A DNA stretch of 39,162 bases from an uncultured Alphaproteobacteria bacterium (GTDB lineage Bacteria; Pseudomonadota; Alphaproteobacteria; UBA7985; CAJQQZ01), in the NCBI GenBank assembly GCA_905480575.1, contig CAJQQZ010000127.1, positions 1-39,162 on the forward strand. Direction: 5' to 3'. The notes beneath the pieces were generated by a model. It made no database searches, had not been told where the DNA came from, and saw only the letters and a list, made by a program, of their open reading frames with translations. The translations under genes and the position numbers were made by a program. This document shows, in pieces, positions 5,334-16,867 of the stretch; within the stretch, counting starts at the first letter, position 1; each line of letters starts with the position of its first letter.

Positions 5334-6101
5334 ATGTCCAAGCCACTGGTCATTGTGACTGGCGCTGCTCGGGGAATTGGTCTTGCAACTGCTAAACACT
5401 TTCAGAGCAATGGCTGGCAAGTGGCCTTGTTGGATAATCAACATGAAATTCTGATAGAAGCCGAGAACCGGTTAGGAGCAGGTGCTAGGGCCTTTGCCTG
5501 TGATATTTCTGATCCCGATCAAGTTCGGGGAACCGTTGAGCAACTATATCAGGAATTGGGACAGATATCTGCTCTCGTTAACAATGCGGGAGTGGCTGAT
5601 TTCGGTCCATTGTTGGATACTTCATTCGAAGACTGGCGCACGATTATGTCAACCAACCTTGATGGCACCTTTCTTATGACGCAAGCCGTAGGCAGGATAA
5701 TGGCCAAACATGGTAGTGGCGCTATTGTTAACATCAGCTCGATCTCCGGCTTGAGAGCCAGCACCTTGAGAGTGGCCTATGGGACATCAAAAGCAGCTGT
5801 GGCTCATCTGTCGCTTCAGCAGGCGGCTGAGTTGGGCGAGTTTGGTATCCGGGTAAACACGGTCGCACCAGGACCAGTAGATACAGAAATGGCGAAGAAA
5901 GTTCACTCTGCTGAAATCAGAGCGGCTTATCACGACGCCATACCGTTGAACCGCTATGGCCTAGAGGAAGAGATTGCAAATGCAATCTACTTTCTTTGTT
6001 CAGACCAGGCCTCGTACATCACTGGTCAAACGATAGCCGTCGACGGCGGGTTCGATGCAACAGGCATCGGGTTACCCGCCTTGCGTGAGAATTCAAACTA
6101 A
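5334..6101 (+). CDS. SDR-family NAD(P)-dependent oxidoreductase
   Basis: This is a classical short-chain dehydrogenase/reductase of 255 aa that reduces or oxidises a carbonyl/alcohol group. It has the cofactor motif TGAARGIG (9-16), NNAG (83-86), a serine pair at 136/138 and the Tyr149-x3-Lys153 active site. The typical C-terminal ITGQTIAVDGG segment lies near residue 230. The substrate cannot be read from the sequence; FabG-like 3-oxoacyl reductases and many sugar or sterol dehydrogenases share this layout. An acidic residue ending beta-2 (LLDN, about 32-35) favours NAD(H). It is coupled to the upstream unknown gene, and its stop codon region overlaps the end of the convergent soeC-like gene by 4 nt. 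Confidence 0.9.
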   Translation: MSKPLVIVTGAARGIGLATAKHFQSNGWQVALLDNQHEILIEAENRLGAGARAFACDISDPDQVRGTVEQLYQELGQISALVNNAGVADFGPLLDTSFEDWRTIMSTNLDGTFLMTQAVGRIMAKHGSGAIVNISSISGLRASTLRVAYGTSKAAVAHLSLQQAAELGEFGIRVNTVAPGPVDTEMAKKVHSAEIRAAYHDAIPLNRYGLEEEIANAIYFLCSDQASYITGQTIAVDGGFDATGIGLPALRENSN

Positions 6102-7027
6102 GCCCGCTCAGCCCCGTAATAGAGTGTGACGGTATGCTTGGCTTCTGCGAAATAGAGCCAACGTACTGTCAACGTGCCAGCGATCACCGATGCAAAACCA
6201 ACGAGAGCTGCTAGAACTTGCAGTAGTTCGATCTGAACCAATCCAATGAGAATTGCAGTCAGGATCGGCAAAACAAAGCAGAGTACCACAGAAATACCGC
6301 GCAGCTTGTGAGCATGCTTGCGGGCAATCGTGTATCCCATTTCTTTCAACAGATAGTTCTCTTCTGAGTGTGGCGGGTCGATCAGTTTGACTTTACCCAT
6401 GTACCCGAGACCTGTCGCAGTACCGGCATCACTGATGGAACGTCCGTTGTCTACGTGGCGCCAGTAGATAGCCTTGATAACCCAAGCGATAACCAGAGCG
6501 ACGATGGCGTGCCATGGCATCCATCCGTAGGAATAGCCCATCAAGAAAGCAACGAAGAGGTAAGCGACACCGCCGGTGGCTAGAGCAAATGATAAGTAGA
6601 CTAACGGTGTATAGCCATTGTTCCAATGGCGGACCGTTTTGACAGATCCGTAAATCATCGCGGTGCAATAGACAGTGATTACACAGCAAATGGCCGTGAG
6701 TGTACCGGCTATCGAATTGAATGTTCCGTGAATGAGCCAGTCGTATGCCAACCAAGCCATGGGTGCAAAGGTGATGATTGCCATACAGCCTTCGCGCGAC
6801 AACCAGGAAGAACGCCATTGCGTTAGCGCACGCCATGCGCGTTCGGGATGTCCCAAGTGAAAAGTAGAAGACAAAAGTCCGACAACAATCATTGCAGCTG
6901 AAAGTCCCAGACTAGCAACGCCAAGAAGGCGGTCAGCCGGCAAGAAACCAAGACTAAGAAGGAACAACAAACCGTAGCCAGCGCCAGAGAGTGTTGTGAA
7001 GAAGATAATCGAATAAGCTGGATGCAT
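6098..7027 (-). CDS. soeC: Membrane anchor subunit of SoeABC sulfite dehydrogenase (DmsC/NrfD-like)
   Basis: This 309-aa integral membrane protein of the DmsC family has about eight hydrophobic helices. It would anchor the SoeAB dimer on the cytoplasmic face of the inner membrane and pass electrons from sulfite oxidation to quinone. A conserved HLGHPERAWRAL segment (about residues 58-69) and a WRSSWLSREG segment (about 72-81) are typical of the anchor family. It starts 5 nt after the soeB stop and closes the soeABC operon. Its 3' end overlaps the convergent SDR gene by 4 nt. The Soe assignment rests mainly on the partner SoeA. Confidence 0.85.
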   Translation of the reverse strand: MHPAYSIIFFTTLSGAGYGLLFLLSLGFLPADRLLGVASLGLSAAMIVVGLLSSTFHLGHPERAWRALTQWRSSWLSREGCMAIITFAPMAWLAYDWLIHGTFNSIAGTLTAICCVITVYCTAMIYGSVKTVRHWNNGYTPLVYLSFALATGGVAYLFVAFLMGYSYGWMPWHAIVALVIAWVIKAIYWRHVDNGRSISDAGTATGLGYMGKVKLIDPPHSEENYLLKEMGYTIARKHAHKLRGISVVLCFVLPILTAILIGLVQIELLQVLAALVGFASVIAGTLTVRWLYFAEAKHTVTLYYGAERA

Positions 7028-7032
7028 AGTTT

Positions 7033-7785
7033 TTACGCTCCCATTGAAAGAATGTCGTCGAGCCAGCCAAGGAAACCGCCTTGAGCGGCGACTTGGGTTG
7101 AAGCAGCGGTTTCAGAGCCAACACATGAAGGCTTGTCCTGTTGCTTTGCACGAGGCGGAAGGTACTTGTTGGTCGGTCTTGTGCCCATTTCAGGCATTAG
7201 ATCGTAACCGCCGCGTTCTCTGACCATCTCTGACACGTTTGAGTCAGGATCATTGAAGTCACCGAAGTGACGCGCAGAGGCTGGGCACGTGTTAACACAA
7301 GCTGGTTGGCGTTGCGCCTCTGGGATATTCTCGTTGTAGATACGGTCCACACAAAGCGTACATTTCTTCATGACTCCACCAGCAAGATCCATTTCACGAG
7401 CACCGTAAGGACAAGACCAAGCACAAAGACCACAGCCGATACATTTGCTCTCGTCGACGAGAACGATACCGTCGTCTTGACGCTTGTAGGATGCACCAGT
7501 TGGACAGGCTGTCACACAAGGTGCGTCATCGCAGTGCAAGCAGGATTTAGGGAAGTGGATCGTGCGGCTGTTCTTGCCTTCGCCAACTTCAAGCGCATGA
7601 ACACGGTTAAGCCAGGCACCATCTGTCTCCGCCCCGTAAGGGTTTACGTCAGATAGAGGGGCCGCATAACCGCCAGTGTTCCACTCTTTGCAGTTAACAA
7701 CGCAAGCTTGGCATCCAACACAGATGTCCAAGTCAATAACGAGGCCGAGACGTTTCGCGGAAGGGGTAAGAGGTAGTGACGTCAT
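7033..7785 (-). CDS. soeB: Four-cluster ferredoxin-type subunit of SoeABC sulfite dehydrogenase
   Basis: This electron-transfer subunit is expected to hold four [4Fe-4S] clusters and to link the molybdenum subunit SoeA to the membrane anchor SoeC. Four cysteine groups are visible: C-x2-C-x2-C-x3-C near residues 22-32, C-x2-C-x4-C-x3-C near 80-92, C-x2-C-x2-C-x3-C near 114-124 and a split group at about 140-167 (KKCTLCVDR and CVNTCP). The length of 250 aa fits DmsB/SoeB-type proteins. There is no signal peptide, consistent with cytoplasmic location. Its ATG overlaps the soeA stop codon by one base (TAATG), indicating translational coupling. Confidence 0.9.
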   Translation of the reverse strand: MTSLPLTPSAKRLGLVIDLDICVGCQACVVNCKEWNTGGYAAPLSDVNPYGAETDGAWLNRVHALEVGEGKNSRTIHFPKSCLHCDDAPCVTACPTGASYKRQDDGIVLVDESKCIGCGLCAWSCPYGAREMDLAGGVMKKCTLCVDRIYNENIPEAQRQPACVNTCPASARHFGDFNDPDSNVSEMVRERGGYDLMPEMGTRPTNKYLPPRAKQQDKPSCVGSETAASTQVAAQGGFLGWLDDILSMGA

Positions 7786-10697
7786 TAGCTTTTCCCTCCG
7801 AAGATTTTCGTCGCTTTTTGGAGTGTTTTGGCAAACTGTGATCCGTAACGAACAGAGCTTGGGCGCTCAGCCATACCTGGAGGTGTTGGCAAGCTTTCAA
7901 ACTGTGGCTCGGTTACTGCTTGATCGTTGGCTTCAGCTTTGCGCATGGATACGCGTAAATCATACCAAGCTGCTTGTCCTGTAACTGGATCAGCGACTGC
8001 ATAGCGATAACCTGAACCCTGATCCGGGAGAAGTTCTGAGATTAGATGGTTCATCAAGAAACCTTTTTTGGCTTCAGGTGCGTCTTTTTCCAAATTCCAA
8101 GAACCTGAACGCTTGCCGATCGCGTTCCAAGTCCAAACGGTTTGGTCGTTAACGCCTTCCATGACTTGGACTATGACTTTGATTTGGCTATGGCGGCTGG
8201 AAAGGTAGGCCCAGTCTCCGGTCACCAGATCATGCTTGTCAGCAAGTGACTGTGGAATATAGAGCGGGTTATGACCATGAATCTGTCTAAGCCAGGCGTT
8301 TTGTGAACCCCAAGAGTGGTACATCGCCATTGGGCGCTGTGTAATGGCGTGAAGCGGGAATTCTTCCTCGTCATTATCGATGTCTTCGAACGGTTCATAC
8401 CAGAAAGGCAGGGGATCGAAGTATTTCTCTACGCGTGCTCTGTGCTCATCAGGTGGTTGGTGGTCGCCATGTCCTTGAGCCGCCAAGCGGAACTTAGCCA
8501 TCGGCTCTGAGTAGAGTTGAATAACAACACGTTCAGCTTTCGGGATGAAGCCCATTTCAGTTGCATAATCGAGATAGGCCTGATTGGAGTGCTTAAAGTA
8601 ATGCATCTCATCGGGCATTTTGTCATGCCAGAAACAGCCATTGTCGATATAGGCTTGCAGCTGGTTCGGATTAGGTTCGCCTTTACCCTTTTTCGATCCG
8701 TCTTTACCGCGGAAGCCAGCAAGAGGGCCCTGACCAGGTGTGCGTTCGTGATTAACGAGGTAATCCGGGTAACCACCAGGGAATTTGGCGGAACCATCTT
8801 CGTTAGTCATGCCAGGCAGACCAAGTCGAGCGCCCAGATCCAAAACAACGGACTGGAACGCGCGAACATCACGATCAGGCTCTAGAACGGGCTGGCGAAT
8901 TGAGTCTGTTGGACCGTCCGCGTCAGAGATCGGACGATCAAGTAGTGAAATCGCATCCCAACGCTCCAGATAGGTCGTATCTGGCAAGATTATGTCTGCA
9001 TAAGCAACAGTTTCAGAAAAGTAAGCATCTGAATAGATGATGTTCGGTATCTTATACTCGCCAGTAGCTGGATCTTTATCCGTCAACATCTTCATTGTGT
9101 CTGTGGTGTTCATGGCAGAGTTCCAAGCCATGTTTGCCATGTACATAAAGAGCGTATCAATAGGGTAGGGATCACCCTTCCAAGCATTAGTGATGACCAT
9201 GTGCATCATACCGTGGGCGGAAAGAGGAGCTTCCCAAGAGAAAGCTTTATCGATCCGGTTTGGTTGACCGTTCTCATCAACAATCAGATCTTCTGGTCCC
9301 ATTGTGAAACCAAGCGGCGGTCCTGGCATTGGCTTGTTCGGACCAATTTGATCCGGACGACCAGCAGGCTTTGGCCCAGGTGGGATAGGGCGTGGGAATG
9401 GAGGCTTGTAGCGGAAACCGCCTGGTGTATCGATTGAACCCAGCAGAACCTGCAACATATGCAATGAGCGACAAGTATGGAAACCGTTAGAGTGGGCAGA
9501 GATGCCGCGCATGGCGTGCATCGCAACTGGGCGGCCAATCATCTTCTCGTGACGCTGGCCCGTCCAATCAGTCCAAGGCTGATCAATAACTACCTCTTCC
9601 TTGAAAGCAACGTCTGACATTTCTTTGGCGAGGCGGTAGATTGTGTCAGCCGGAACACCGCAACGTTCAGCGGCGTTCTCCGGGCTGTACACGTCATCAA
9701 GATAGCGCTCAGCCATTAGCTGGAAAACGGGTTTGGCAACTTGGCCGCGCTTTGGCTTGAATTCACCTTTGAGCGCTGCGTCCATCAAACCAGATTCAGC
9801 CGTGACGGCTTTATCTGTTTTGCGGTTCCAGACCATTGGATTGCCGTCCTTGTCACGAACAAACAAACCATCGTCGGCACCGCCTGGGTTCTGGATAACA
9901 AGCCAGCTGCAATTCGTATAACGCAGCAAATAGTTAACGTCGATCCAGCCGTTCTTCATTATGACGTTAATCATGGCATTGATGAACAGGCCGTCAGTAC
10001 CAGGGCGAATACCGATCCATTCGTCAGCGATTGCTGAGTAGCCAGTACGCACAGGGTTGACTGAAACGAATTTAGCGCCGTTTCCTTTGATCTTCGACAG
10101 ACCCATTTTTATTGGGTTTGAATCATGATCTTCAGCAACACCGAACATCATCATGTACTTGGCACGGGGCCAATCAGGCTCCCCAAACTCCCAGAATGAG
10201 CCGCCGATAGAATAGAGACCACCAGCCGCCATGTTGACCGAGCAAAATCCGCCATGAGCCGCGTAGTTTGGCGTACCAAACATGGATGCCCACCAACCGG
10301 TCAAACCTTGGCTTTGGTCACGCCCGGTAAAGAAAGCAAGTTTACGTGGGTCAGTGTTGCGGATGTTAGACAACAAACCAGTAACAGTTTCTAGCGCTTC
10401 TTCCCATTCGATTTCTTTGAACTCACCAGAGCCACGTTCACCAACGCGCTTCAATGGTTTTGAAAGACGAGCAGGGGAATAGTGCTGCATAATGCCAGCA
10501 GACCCCTTGGCACAAAGCACGCCCTTGTTTAGTGGATGGTCAGGATTACCTTCAATGTAGCGTATCTTGCCGTCTTTCAGGTGAACCTTAATGCCACAAC
10601 GGCAAGCGCACATGTAACAAGTGGTCGTTTTGACTTCATCGTTGAGCGGCGTGTTGTATTCGATTTCGGGTTCGCCAGGTCTAGTGTCCGGTGCCAT
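7785..10697 (-). CDS. soeA: Molybdopterin catalytic subunit of SoeABC sulfite dehydrogenase
   Basis: This large DMSO-reductase-family molybdoenzyme oxidises sulfite to sulfate in the cytoplasm. The N-terminal [4Fe-4S] motif is C-x2-C-x3-C (residues 27, 30, 34) with a fourth Cys at 62 (VLCAKG), followed by the molybdopterin domains. The segments ACRCGIKV, FTGRDQSQGLTGWW and GGFCSVNMAAGG are those I associate with SoeA proteins rather than periplasmic DmsA. No Tat signal precedes them, which also fits SoeA. I prefer ATG 10697 (970 aa) because AAAGG lies 7 nt ahead of it; an in-frame GTG at 10721 would overlap a palindrome and has no ribosome site. Molybdopterin-family membership is certain; polysulfide or thiosulfate substrates are less likely alternatives. 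Confidence 0.88.
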   Translation of the reverse strand: MAPDTRPGEPEIEYNTPLNDEVKTTTCYMCACRCGIKVHLKDGKIRYIEGNPDHPLNKGVLCAKGSAGIMQHYSPARLSKPLKRVGERGSGEFKEIEWEEALETVTGLLSNIRNTDPRKLAFFTGRDQSQGLTGWWASMFGTPNYAAHGGFCSVNMAAGGLYSIGGSFWEFGEPDWPRAKYMMMFGVAEDHDSNPIKMGLSKIKGNGAKFVSVNPVRTGYSAIADEWIGIRPGTDGLFINAMINVIMKNGWIDVNYLLRYTNCSWLVIQNPGGADDGLFVRDKDGNPMVWNRKTDKAVTAESGLMDAALKGEFKPKRGQVAKPVFQLMAERYLDDVYSPENAAERCGVPADTIYRLAKEMSDVAFKEEVVIDQPWTDWTGQRHEKMIGRPVAMHAMRGISAHSNGFHTCRSLHMLQVLLGSIDTPGGFRYKPPFPRPIPPGPKPAGRPDQIGPNKPMPGPPLGFTMGPEDLIVDENGQPNRIDKAFSWEAPLSAHGMMHMVITNAWKGDPYPIDTLFMYMANMAWNSAMNTTDTMKMLTDKDPATGEYKIPNIIYSDAYFSETVAYADIILPDTTYLERWDAISLLDRPISDADGPTDSIRQPVLEPDRDVRAFQSVVLDLGARLGLPGMTNEDGSAKFPGGYPDYLVNHERTPGQGPLAGFRGKDGSKKGKGEPNPNQLQAYIDNGCFWHDKMPDEMHYFKHSNQAYLDYATEMGFIPKAERVVIQLYSEPMAKFRLAAQGHGDHQPPDEHRARVEKYFDPLPFWYEPFEDIDNDEEEFPLHAITQRPMAMYHSWGSQNAWLRQIHGHNPLYIPQSLADKHDLVTGDWAYLSSRHSQIKVIVQVMEGVNDQTVWTWNAIGKRSGSWNLEKDAPEAKKGFLMNHLISELLPDQGSGYRYAVADPVTGQAAWYDLRVSMRKAEANDQAVTEPQFESLPTPPGMAERPSSVRYGSQFAKTLQKATKIFGGKS

Positions 10698-10718
10698 TTT
10701 TGTGCCTTTGTTCGTGAA

Positions 10719-10737
10719 CACTGCGTGTGTCGCAGTG
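10719..10737. promoter_or_regulatory. 7-bp perfect inverted repeat just upstream of soeA
   Basis: CACTGCG (10719-10725) and CGCAGTG (10731-10737) are separated by 5 nt. The dyad lies 22 nt ahead of the chosen soeA start. It could be an operator or a stem-loop in the soe mRNA leader; no T-run follows, so it is not a terminator. Confidence 0.45.
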
Positions 10738-13829: not shown

Positions 13830-14324
13830 TTAAGTTGGTAACAACTGTTCTGAGTAAGTATATCGCGAGCAAGGTATTGGCAACGAAGCGATAAAAGGCA
13901 TCCCGTCAAAATTCACTTTGCGGATCAACTTTTGATACTGAACAGTAACAGTAAACTGATACAATCTACTGGTCATGGATGTGTGGATTTGACTAAGATG
14001 GGTTTCCCCAGACAGCGCTTCTAGATAGTGGCTAGCAACCGCTTTGTCATGATCACCACTGACTGTTGCCATTGCTTCGTCAGGATGTGTCTCGAAATCA
14101 TAGCGCAGACACTTGGCCGTAAGGCATTCGCGACCGAGATTAACAATGGAAGGTGGTGACGTTGGTGTTAACATCTGAGGTTCTGAGATCATCAAATATC
14201 GCAAAAAAGGGCAATCTCTTCTAATTTCGCCACCATTTTGTTTTAGGTAATCATCGAAATCTTGAATTTGGGCGGAAGTCTCTCTTAGGAGCAATGGTTT
14301 TGAAAAGGTGAGATCTCTAGTCAT
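13830..14324 (-). CDS. Cassette protein B, copy 1: ~164-aa protein, faintly PAS_5-like
   Basis: The family is not known to me, but this protein is a clear paralogue of the one at 16125-16613 (roughly 40% identical by eye). Shared landmarks are KPLLL near residue 9, D-Y-L-x-Q-x-G-G (about 25-32), RxDCPFL (about 35-41), PPS and a TAK at about 69-71, EALxGETHxS (about 103-112) and YxKLI (about 129-133). The order, with a charged helix, a hydrophobic strand and a late YxKLI strand, is reminiscent of the short PAS_5 proteins common in alphaproteobacteria; that is a weak inference. There is no signal peptide. Its ATG overlaps the stop of the small upstream gene by 4 nt (ATGA), so the pair is translationally coupled. 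Confidence 0.75.
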   Translation of the reverse strand: MTRDLTFSKPLLLRETSAQIQDFDDYLKQNGGEIRRDCPFLRYLMISEPQMLTPTSPPSIVNLGRECLTAKCLRYDFETHPDEAMATVSGDHDKAVASHYLEALSGETHLSQIHTSMTSRLYQFTVTVQYQKLIRKVNFDGMPFIASLPIPCSRYTYSEQLLPT

Positions 14325-14509
14325 TGAAGAGCCTTATGTGCTGCCCCATCCAGAACACGGTTGAATTCTACCCACATCATAATGTTGAGATATTCTCGTT
14401 CATCGGGGTTAAGGGTGCCCGGTGCTTTGTCGCTAAAGTACTTTTGGAAAGTGGTCGCTAAAACATCTTTAGAAAATTGCTCAAGTACCTCAATAGGATC
14501 TCGTTTCAT
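14321..14509 (-). CDS. Cassette protein A, copy 1: 62-aa small protein
   Basis: This short acidic, helical protein is homologous to the C-terminal two-thirds of the 82-aa product at 16619-16867. The shared core is LxxxFQKYF/LNRYF followed by DEREYxxIMxWVE (about residues 36-48). I do not know the family. In both copies it directly precedes the ~163-aa cassette protein B, here with a 4-nt overlap, so the two products probably act together. It lacks the N-terminal 20-30 residues present in copy 2. There is no signal peptide and no membrane segment. Confidence 0.7.
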   Translation of the reverse strand: MKRDPIEVLEQFSKDVLATTFQKYFSDKAPGTLNPDEREYLNIMMWVEFNRVLDGAAHKALQ

Positions 14510-14633
14510 TATTTTGCGCCCAATGAATTCTGTAGGTTCCTACTAATTTAGAAAACAATTTTATCCTTGTACAGCCGAAATTTCTTCAACGTTATGCTAA
14601 GCTACGGAATCTTAAGGCGTGAAAACCCACTTC

Positions 14634-15219
14634 TTATTTGTAACCGATGCCAATCAGTCTTGGTGGCATCTTCGCAACATAAATCTGCAAATCAGAAAAA
14701 CCCTTGTAAGCGTAGTACTCAAAAAAATGAGGGCTGAAACGGTAACAGTCGGGATCGCCGTGTGTTTTATAGCAGGCAGTGCCATGACCTTCACTGTATG
14801 ACCATTTTTTGATGACACAAGATTTGAAATTCACAAATCCTGGAACACCGATAATCATCGGCGCACCTTTTTTCAATACACGGCGCATTTGCTCAACGGA
14901 CAGCCAAAACATTGGATCGTGCTCCAGCATCGATACAGAGATGACACAATCGAAATACTCGTCTTCCCATGGCAATTCGTGAGCGCTGCAATACTTGATC
15001 TCGAAATGTTCGAAGACACCACAATGCGGTTCGTCAATATTGACGCCAACGCCCTCTATTTCATCTCTGTTCTCGCGAATATATGGCATGAGGTCGAGCG
15101 CTGTCGCCCACTGCTAGTATCCTGCCTTTGGGCGAAACCATGCGGAGAATTTTGTCGTAAATCTTCTGTTCGCTAAGCTTCTTTGGGACGTCTAGCCATT
15201 GAGCCTCAATTTGTGCCAT
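14634..15219 (-). pseudogene. Class I SAM-dependent methyltransferase, frameshifted
   Basis: Two reading frames together encode one methyltransferase. The first runs from ATG 15219 (AAGGA 8 nt ahead) and contains the glycine-loop strand GRILAVGD near residue 35. The second is open to 14634 and contains motif II/III (HELPWEDEYFDCVISVSMLEHD) and the rest of the Methyltransf_11 fold, ending with KMPPRLIGIGYK. They join at about 15098-15110, where one extra base (or two missing) shifts the frame. The second frame alone starts at an internal ATG (15089, 151 aa) and lacks the SAM-binding loop, so it should be inactive. A sequencing error is possible. The gene lies between the two cassette copies; its substrate is unknown. 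Confidence 0.7.
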
Positions 15220-15407
15220 TGTCGTATTCCTTGATTATTTCCGCTGTTTAGCCATCAGCGTAGGGGGGAAGTCAACTGCTTTGATTCTGTTTTTTTGGCA
15301 AAGGGCACAACCGTTGGTATTTGCAACAAGATCACAAATTCGTGAATCTGGCTCTCGCATCCGTTCTTCGGATTAAAATTACGTTTACTGCCTTTATCTT
15401 TCTTTAT

Positions 15408-15438
15408 AGCGGGGCAACGATCACTATAGTGCCTCGCT
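15408..15438. promoter_or_regulatory. Hairpin with inner palindrome upstream of the GNAT-like gene
   Basis: AGCGGGGCA (15408-15416) pairs with TGCCTCGCT (15430-15438) over nine positions with one G-T pair, and the 10-bp perfect palindrome CACTATAGTG lies at 15422-15431. The structure ends 23 nt before the GTG start at 15462. It could be an operator or a leader stem-loop; it has no T-run. Confidence 0.4.
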
Positions 15439-15461
15439 GATAATACTAAAGGGCGGGTATA

Positions 15462-16187
15462 GTGGATTTTGATCCAGGAATTTTAGCGGAAGCGATGGTG
15501 CTACTGAGGAGAGCCTTGGGTGATCATGGTTTACAAATCGAATTTATTTCTGACATCCATGAATACAAAAAGAGGGTTGAACAAGCTAGAGCAGAAGAAG
15601 TTGATCCTCAGTTCAGTCCTGATCTCTTTGATTTCCATTCTGGGATCTTTGTTGGCCTCTTGTTGCTCGATAGCAACAAAAAAATAGTTGGCGGGCAGTC
15701 GCTTCGCTTGGAATCCTTAGGTTCCTCCAATTTGAAGAAAATAATCTTTAATCAACAATCGAGGTTGTATGGAAGAGGACCTCAAGGTGGAGAATTAACC
15801 TCGAGCTTTAGTTCTGGGACCGAGGTGCTTTCTGGACAAATTGTCTACCATGGAGGCTTTTGGGTCGCAAAGAGTTATCAAAGAAGGTCGAAATCCGGCT
15901 TCAATACAGGAGCGGTGTTCATAAAATACGCACACTTAGTGAGTCTCGCGAAATGGAATCCTGATTATATATACGGCTACATGAAGCCTGAAATGGTCTA
16001 CAATGGACTGGCTGCCCAGTATTGGATCCCGCATGTCCTACCATGTCTGTTCCAGTGGGATAAAGTTCCAGATCAACATCATTGTTCAGAATGGGAGTTT
16101 CTTTGTTACATCACGCGTGTAAATCTAGTGGAGCAAGCCTCGTTCATAAACGATGGGCGTTTTTTGGACCATCAGAGCAGCAGTTAA
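15462..16187 (+). CDS. Unrecognised protein, 241 aa, possibly GNAT-like
   Basis: I cannot place this protein with confidence. The middle part (about residues 62-185) has the look of a GNAT acyltransferase fold: a strand VGLLLLDSNKKIVGGQSLRLE, a later HGGFWVAKSYQRRSKSGF stretch where acyl-CoA-binding loops usually sit, then LVSLAKWNPDYIYGYM and an Asn-Gly-Leu segment. There is no signal peptide or membrane helix. It starts with GTG after the strong site AAGGGCGGG. It is the only plus-strand gene in this stretch, standing between the two cassette copies. Its last 63 nt overlap the 3' end of the second cassette gene B on the other strand, which is long for a convergent overlap. Confidence 0.65.
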   Translation: MDFDPGILAEAMVLLRRALGDHGLQIEFISDIHEYKKRVEQARAEEVDPQFSPDLFDFHSGIFVGLLLLDSNKKIVGGQSLRLESLGSSNLKKIIFNQQSRLYGRGPQGGELTSSFSSGTEVLSGQIVYHGGFWVAKSYQRRSKSGFNTGAVFIKYAHLVSLAKWNPDYIYGYMKPEMVYNGLAAQYWIPHVLPCLFQWDKVPDQHHCSEWEFLCYITRVNLVEQASFINDGRFLDHQSSS

Positions 16188-16613
16188 TTGAACGCCGTGA
16201 ATAGTCACTAGCTTGATCAATTTTTCATAATGAATCGAACGTGTGATATTGTCTCTTGTTGTGAAACTGCCAAACACCTCACTGATGTGCGTTTCCCCAA
16301 CCAGCGCTTCTCCATAATCCTTAGCGACTAGACGGTCAAATTCTCCAGTGACAGTTTGAAGAACATTGTCAGGTCTTGAAGACCAATCATAGTTAATTGC
16401 TTTGGCTGTAAAACTATTTTTTCCAATGTTGATAGTTGATGGAGGCAGGTTTTGGTCGTGCATTGTATTCTCCGAAATAACAAGCTTAGCCAGAAATGGA
16501 CAGTCTGGTCTAATTCCCCCCCCTGTTTGTCGCAAGTAATCTTGGAAATCGGAAAGTAGCGGAGCTGCTTGTTTTAGAAGGAGCGGTCTTGTGAAAACTA
16601 GATCATCCAGCAT
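16125..16613 (-). CDS. Cassette protein B, copy 2: ~162-aa protein, faintly PAS_5-like
   Basis: This is the paralogue of the protein at 13830-14324 and has the same landmarks: RPLLLK near residue 9, DYLRQTGGGIRPDCPFL (about 25-41), ISE, PPSTINIG, TAK, EALVGETHIS (about 103-112) and HYEKLIKLV (about 129-137). Conservation over the full length, with similar size, shows that the family is under selection and is not a chance frame. It starts 5 nt after the stop of its small partner. Its 3' end overlaps the convergent 241-aa gene by 63 nt. The function is unknown; a PAS-like sensory fold is the best guess, with low certainty. Confidence 0.75.
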   Translation of the reverse strand: MLDDLVFTRPLLLKQAAPLLSDFQDYLRQTGGGIRPDCPFLAKLVISENTMHDQNLPPSTINIGKNSFTAKAINYDWSSRPDNVLQTVTGEFDRLVAKDYGEALVGETHISEVFGSFTTRDNITRSIHYEKLIKLVTIHGVQLTAALMVQKTPIVYERGLLH

Positions 16614-16618
16614 TGAAT

Positions 16619-16867
16619 TCAGCAGAGCCCATTCTTGATACTGGATTTGTATTCAACCCAGAGCATAATTTTGAAGTATTCTCGTTCATCATCGTTGAGC
16701 TCGTCGGCGCTTCGGCCACCAAAGTAGCGGTTAAGTCCATTGTGGACCAATTCTTCGATCAGCAGGACATCATGGCCTAAGGGGGCCTCACCTAAAGATC
16801 GTTCAACCGTAATGTTGAAATATTCTCTATCGAGGATTTCTGCGACAACGTCTCTTATTTCTTCCAT
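16619..16867 (-). CDS. Cassette protein A, copy 2: 82-aa small protein
   Basis: This partner of cassette protein B has the shared core DDEREYFKIMLWVEY (about residues 57-71) and an extra N-terminal part compared with copy 1. A similar short string, DREYFNITVE, occurs near residue 13, which hints at an internal repeat. I chose ATG 16867 because GGGAG lies 7 nt ahead of it; the open frame extends to 16966 but has no ribosome site there and would add 33 unlikely residues. The downstream gene follows after 5 nt. The family is unknown, and no signal peptide or membrane helix is seen. Confidence 0.7.
   Translation of the reverse strand: MEEIRDVVAEILDREYFNITVERSLGEAPLGHDVLLIEELVHNGLNRYFGGRSADELNDDEREYFKIMLWVEYKSSIKNGLC

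Follow-up and report, generated by a model that had tools for sequence, protein, structure and literature searches.

A duplicated two-gene unit, with a predicted PAS-like second protein, in a low-GC segment of an uncultured alphaproteobacterium

Two genes, A and B, form one inherited unit that was duplicated en bloc on a contig of an uncultured alphaproteobacterium, and its second gene, B, is under purifying selection. The A-B unit is real and under selection. Its function is a matter of hypothesis: we tentatively prefer to see in it a module confined to one lineage and probably acquired, with B as a putative PAS-like sensor or adaptor of a single domain and A as the small partner of B. The window, meaning the whole stretch of DNA that was analysed, is a complete contig of 39,162 bases and belongs to an assembly of 4.03 Mb that is 99.8% complete.

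The A-B unit and its duplication

The two copies, the segment that holds them and the genes lying between them are the following.

13830..16867: low-GC segment holding both copies, GC 0.434
16619..16867, minus strand: A1, first gene of copy 1, a small acidic protein of 82 aa (pI 4.5)
16125..16613, minus strand: B1, second gene of copy 1, an orphan protein of 162 aa with a predicted PAS-like fold
15462..16187, plus strand: 241-aa GNAT-like protein, a divergent member of its family, probably a neighbour and not part of the A-B unit
14634..15219, minus strand: Methyltransf_11-type methyltransferase with a frame break near 15090-15110, probably a neighbour
14321..14509, minus strand: A2, first gene of copy 2, a small protein of 62 aa (pI 5.2)
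13830..14324, minus strand: B2, second gene of copy 2, an orphan protein of 164 aa with a PAS-like fold predicted at low confidence

All four A and B reading frames lie on the minus strand exactly where a preliminary description of this DNA had placed them. The spacings of -4 and +5 nt that it gave were also found: the start of B2 overlaps the stop of A2 by 4 nt (ATGA), and B1 starts 5 nt past the stop of A1. Its remark that the small proteins are acidic suits A1 well and A2 less. The Shine-Dalgarno-like sequence AAGGGAGAG upstream of A1 was rated good and those of the B1 and B2 genes poor, a combination that fits translational coupling, and A-B is probably a translationally coupled pair. Promoter and terminator scans gave nothing above chance expectation, and no signalling partner gene was recognised beside the unit.

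B1 and B2 are 43% identical along their length with hardly any gap, and their local alignment score was 350, versus a maximum of 49 in 1000 shuffles. For A1 and A2 the score was 86, against a shuffle maximum of 40, and came from the C-terminal stretch LN-DEREY--IM-WVE. A1 carries about 30 extra N-terminal residues, and its C-terminal half is the part to which A2 is homologous. Both members of the pair are thus conserved between the copies, as had been proposed.

The motif REYFxI occurs twice in A1, 48 residues apart and with similar DNA around both occurrences, and once in A2 (REYLNI). An internal repeat in A1 was considered on this basis, and was too weak to build on (shuffling p ~0.02).

At the DNA level, one copy aligns with the other without a break: the match begins ~40 codons before the end of A, crosses the A/B junction and extends to about codon 140 of B. 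It scored 186, versus 45 for shuffled sequences. Upstream of the two copies, the sequences do not match each other. Since homology extends through the junction while the upstream regions differ, A and B were copied together. Comparison of B1 with B2 by the Nei-Gojobori method gave dN 0.58 and dS 1.94, the latter near saturation, and a dN/dS of ~0.3, from which it follows that the B genes encode selected proteins. The earlier suggestion that co-duplication with preserved tight coupling marks A and B as one unit is therefore borne out by the en-bloc DNA homology, the coupling and the purifying selection on B.

The low-GC segment and the genes between the copies

Of all stretches of its length in the contig, the segment 13830-16867 has the lowest GC content (mean of the stretches 0.485, s.d. 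0.017). The A and B copies that it contains are the only ones in the host genome. No relatives of B were found in the 96 nearest genomes (one of them, 84% complete, belongs to the same genus), in 385 genomes of the class, in 398 genomes of the phylum (these samples overlap with the others), or, by tblastn, in plasmids and phages. Two scans of IMG/VR and two of GTDB species contigs, which used short peptide patterns suited to close relatives only, returned the window's own two copies and nothing else. With such patterns, and with a B HMM built from two sequences, distant relatives of B may be missed. Searches for A in plasmids gave chance matches only. The few matches to B at E 0.002-0.07 fell in unrelated ORFs, one of them TonB-receptor-like, and were rejected.

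Low GC content and restricted distribution together suggest acquisition from outside, and the segment was probably acquired horizontally. An empty site could not be identified in relatives, because the adjoining DAO gene has relatives in the order that are just 32-36% identical. No RNA family and no tRNA was found in the window. Its positions 6098-10721 (minus strand) hold a three-gene molybdopterin oxidoreductase operon, with large subunit, ferredoxin-type subunit and membrane anchor, which looks ordinary as far as a reading of the sequence can tell.

A methyltransferase had been described between the copies. The gene does match Methyltransf_11, but it is not intact: its reading frame is split over two ORFs in different frames, 15061-15219 and 14634-15089. 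The break, present in the one assembly, is either a real mutation, making the gene a pseudogene, or an assembly error.

The gene for the 241-aa protein is convergent with B1 and overlaps its 3' end by 63 nt. Scans of this protein against Pfam, NCBIfam, PHROGs and PADLOC gave nothing significant, a sequence search of solved structures gave no match, and no relatives were present in IMG/VR. It is 20-23% identical to hypothetical proteins of rhizobial plasmids. Of 385 alphaproteobacterial genomes sampled, 36 carry its GNAT-like family, to which it is homologous at this level of 20-23%. Against Acetyltransf_1, one member of the family reached E 0.001, just below the cut-off, the others matching more weakly or not at all. 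Motif A (R/Q-x-x-G-x-G/A), which forms the acyl-CoA loop, is absent from the window protein: where the rhizobial relatives mostly have FRGRGL, it has YQRRSKSGFNTG, with a 5-residue insertion. With its motif A loop altered and enlarged in this way, the 241-aa protein may lack the usual mode of acyl-CoA binding.

The ~1.5-kb flanks of GNAT-like relatives were inspected in 29 neighbourhoods from other genomes, and contained neither A nor B in any of them (0/29); the same was true of seven plasmid loci of such relatives. A functional link between the pairs and the two intervening genes is not upheld, given the broken methyltransferase frame and the occurrence of GNAT relatives without A or B in the 29 neighbourhoods and seven plasmid loci. 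Both genes look like bystanders.

Two observations concern the GNAT-like family elsewhere. At rhizobial plasmid loci L030 (2791-8694) and L031 (3113-7666), the gene stands between an ectB-type transaminase and an ATP-grasp or carboxylase-like gene, a setting that hints at a biosynthetic cluster. In one genus, three species encode a PAS_5-type protein of ~300 aa directly after the GNAT-like gene and in the same orientation.

L082 370-1266, minus strand: PAS_5-type protein by the GNAT-like gene, PAS_5 match slightly short of the curated cut-off (E 3.4e-4)
L078 393-1319, minus strand: PAS_5-type protein by the GNAT-like gene, a near relative of the L082 protein
L083 379-1299, minus strand: PAS_5-type protein by the GNAT-like gene, a near relative of the L082 protein

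This adjacency was given no weight, since it represents one event and PAS_5 genes can be abundant in the class (many alphaproteobacterial genomes have 10 to 37).

The state of the segment bears on a first alternative, namely that a mobile element left A and B behind as orphans specific to this lineage, with no joint function now, in a region that is decaying. The adjoining broken methyltransferase, the loss of motif A in the GNAT-like protein, the low GC content and the failure to find relatives elsewhere all agree with it. However, a dN/dS of ~0.3 between B1 and B2, and intact coupled frames in both copies, point to selection both on B and on the way the genes are arranged, so that we consider this alternative unlikely, while still giving it some credence.

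Predicted fold of B

Neither A nor B had a significant match in Pfam, NCBIfam, PHROGs or PADLOC, and B had none in a sequence search of solved structures. Weak hits to DUF1896, Peptidase_M27, Corona_3 and other families, listed for these proteins and for the 241-aa one, lay far below the cut-offs and were taken as chance.

AlphaFold models of B1 and B2 were made from a two-sequence alignment, and as both used the same two sequences they are not independent. The B1 model (mean pLDDT 70, pTM 0.67) consists of a helix (18-30), strands, two helices (81-87 and 91-106) and long strands (108-118, 123-138 and 141-158). Its VIA list is made up of PAS, Cache and related sensor domains, the best at Z 5.0, with rmsd 4.1 and 98 aligned. 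Foldseek returned PAS domains among the top rows, none at E <0.001 and with the ATPase DotB interspersed. The B2 model, made with its own sequence first, is of lower confidence (pLDDT 58) and has nearly the same order of strands and helices. Its list is headed by the PAS domains of FixL and PpsR (Z 5.2-5.3, rmsd 3.3, 91 aligned), and nearly all of the 50 rows are PAS, LOV or Cache domains. A Z of ~5 is weak by itself, lying in the range where a shared common arrangement can yield a match; it is the uniformity of the PAS/Cache lists for both models, and not Z, that leads to the PAS-like assignment. A PAS-like fold, in which helices flank an antiparallel sheet of five strands, is therefore moderately supported as a prediction for B.

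This prediction weighs against a second alternative, in which A-B would be a toxin-antitoxin-like or immunity-like pair, acidic antidote first and effector second, present as linked duplicates in an acquired segment. The order of the genes, with the small acidic one first, and their tight coupling are as expected for such a pair, and the low-GC segment, the restricted distribution and the duplication are also in its favour. Yet no toxin, antitoxin or defence model was matched in Pfam, NCBIfam, PHROGs or PADLOC, B has a pI of about 6 and so is not basic, and its predicted fold points to PAS. We hold this reading to be improbable.

Alternatively, B might be a diverged member of Pfam PAS_5 (PF07310, family cut-off 22 bits), out of reach of sequence methods. 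It is similar to PAS_5 proteins in size and order of elements, and by eye its C-terminal DY..A..GE......YEKLI recalls the PAS_5 stretch DY......YERLLLPL. By hmmscan, however, no PAS_5 match for B1 or B2 was obtained up to E 10, leaving both below the family cut-off, and the host genome has no PAS_5 match at E 0.001. An HMM was built from 29 aligned PAS_5 proteins of alphaproteobacterial genomes; B1 and B2 scored -2.2 and -0.6 bits, and among 2000 shuffles 1029 and 235, respectively, did at least as well. With hhalign the probability was 0.4%, and 1.2% after three PAS_5-type sequences had been added. The hhalign score of 17.0 was exceeded in only 2 of 60 column-shuffled controls, which speaks for a relationship, but the register differed from the one seen by eye. 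As HMM and hhalign scores were not clearly above those of shuffles, B was not filed as PAS_5. The preliminary description had named B being plain PAS_5 as evidence that would count against it; hmmscan, the HMM and hhalign did not find this at the sequence level, though the predicted fold is PAS-like. Membership of PAS_5 beyond the reach of such methods appears improbable to us.

That the whole block is one modification or signalling locus, in which B senses a product that both enzymes act on, is very unlikely: the clustering between the copies, the shared low GC content and, in three species of another genus, the PAS_5-type protein encoded after the GNAT-like gene argue for it, but the methyltransferase frame is broken, the GNAT gene lies on the opposite strand in antiparallel overlap with B1 and has relatives elsewhere without A and B, and the PAS_5 adjacency is confined to one genus, with 10 to 37 PAS_5 genes per genome in many alphaproteobacteria.

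A tentative model and its known counterparts

In the preferred reading, that of a PAS-like B with a small partner A, the unit would have been duplicated en bloc within a low-GC, probably horizontally acquired segment. B would consist of one PAS-like domain, with a helix at the N-terminus, helices in its middle part and three long strands toward the C-terminus. Most likely it would sense a small molecule or redox state, or dock onto a regulatory protein; docking of this kind would be analogous to that of MopJ, a single-domain PAS_5 protein that binds a kinase. A, made just before B, would probably be the partner of B, acting as a chaperone, an antagonist or an output peptide. We infer that A and B may bind physically, and that B may serve as sensor or adaptor. 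Candidate residues of B for holding a ligand or cofactor are Cys38 and His109, both conserved.

The preliminary description knew of no system with this composition, and indeed no described system was matched. A more far-reaching claim seems doubtful at present: that A-B is a two-protein module of a kind not described before, whose small acidic A is made together with a stand-alone PAS-fold sensor outside the recognisable PAS sequence families, and controls it or is released by it. If B does have a PAS fold that profiles miss, annotation underestimates the diversity of stand-alone PAS regulators in alphaproteobacteria, and B with its coupled small A would provide a testable sensor-partner pair. 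If it does not, A-B is a clean orphan gene pair that one lineage duplicated and has retained under selection.

Three known systems invite comparison. In type II toxin-antitoxin pairs, a small acidic gene comes first and a larger coupled gene second. A-B has the same small acidic first gene and tightly coupled larger second one, but differs in having no family match, in B not being basic and in its other predicted fold. PAS and LOV domains, among them those of FixL and PpsR, resemble B in predicted fold order and provide its best structural matches; unlike them, B is reached at Z ~5 and ~10% identity, and has no kinase, HTH or other output domain. For MopJ, we know of no small acidic partner gene. 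B differs from it in showing no significant PAS_5 sequence match, in being duplicated together with its partner A and in being lineage-restricted. MopJ of Caulobacter crescentus, which has 165 residues, consists of a single PAS_5 domain and binds the kinase DivJ (PMC4432633). B is like it in size, in its predicted single domain and in its alphaproteobacterial origin.
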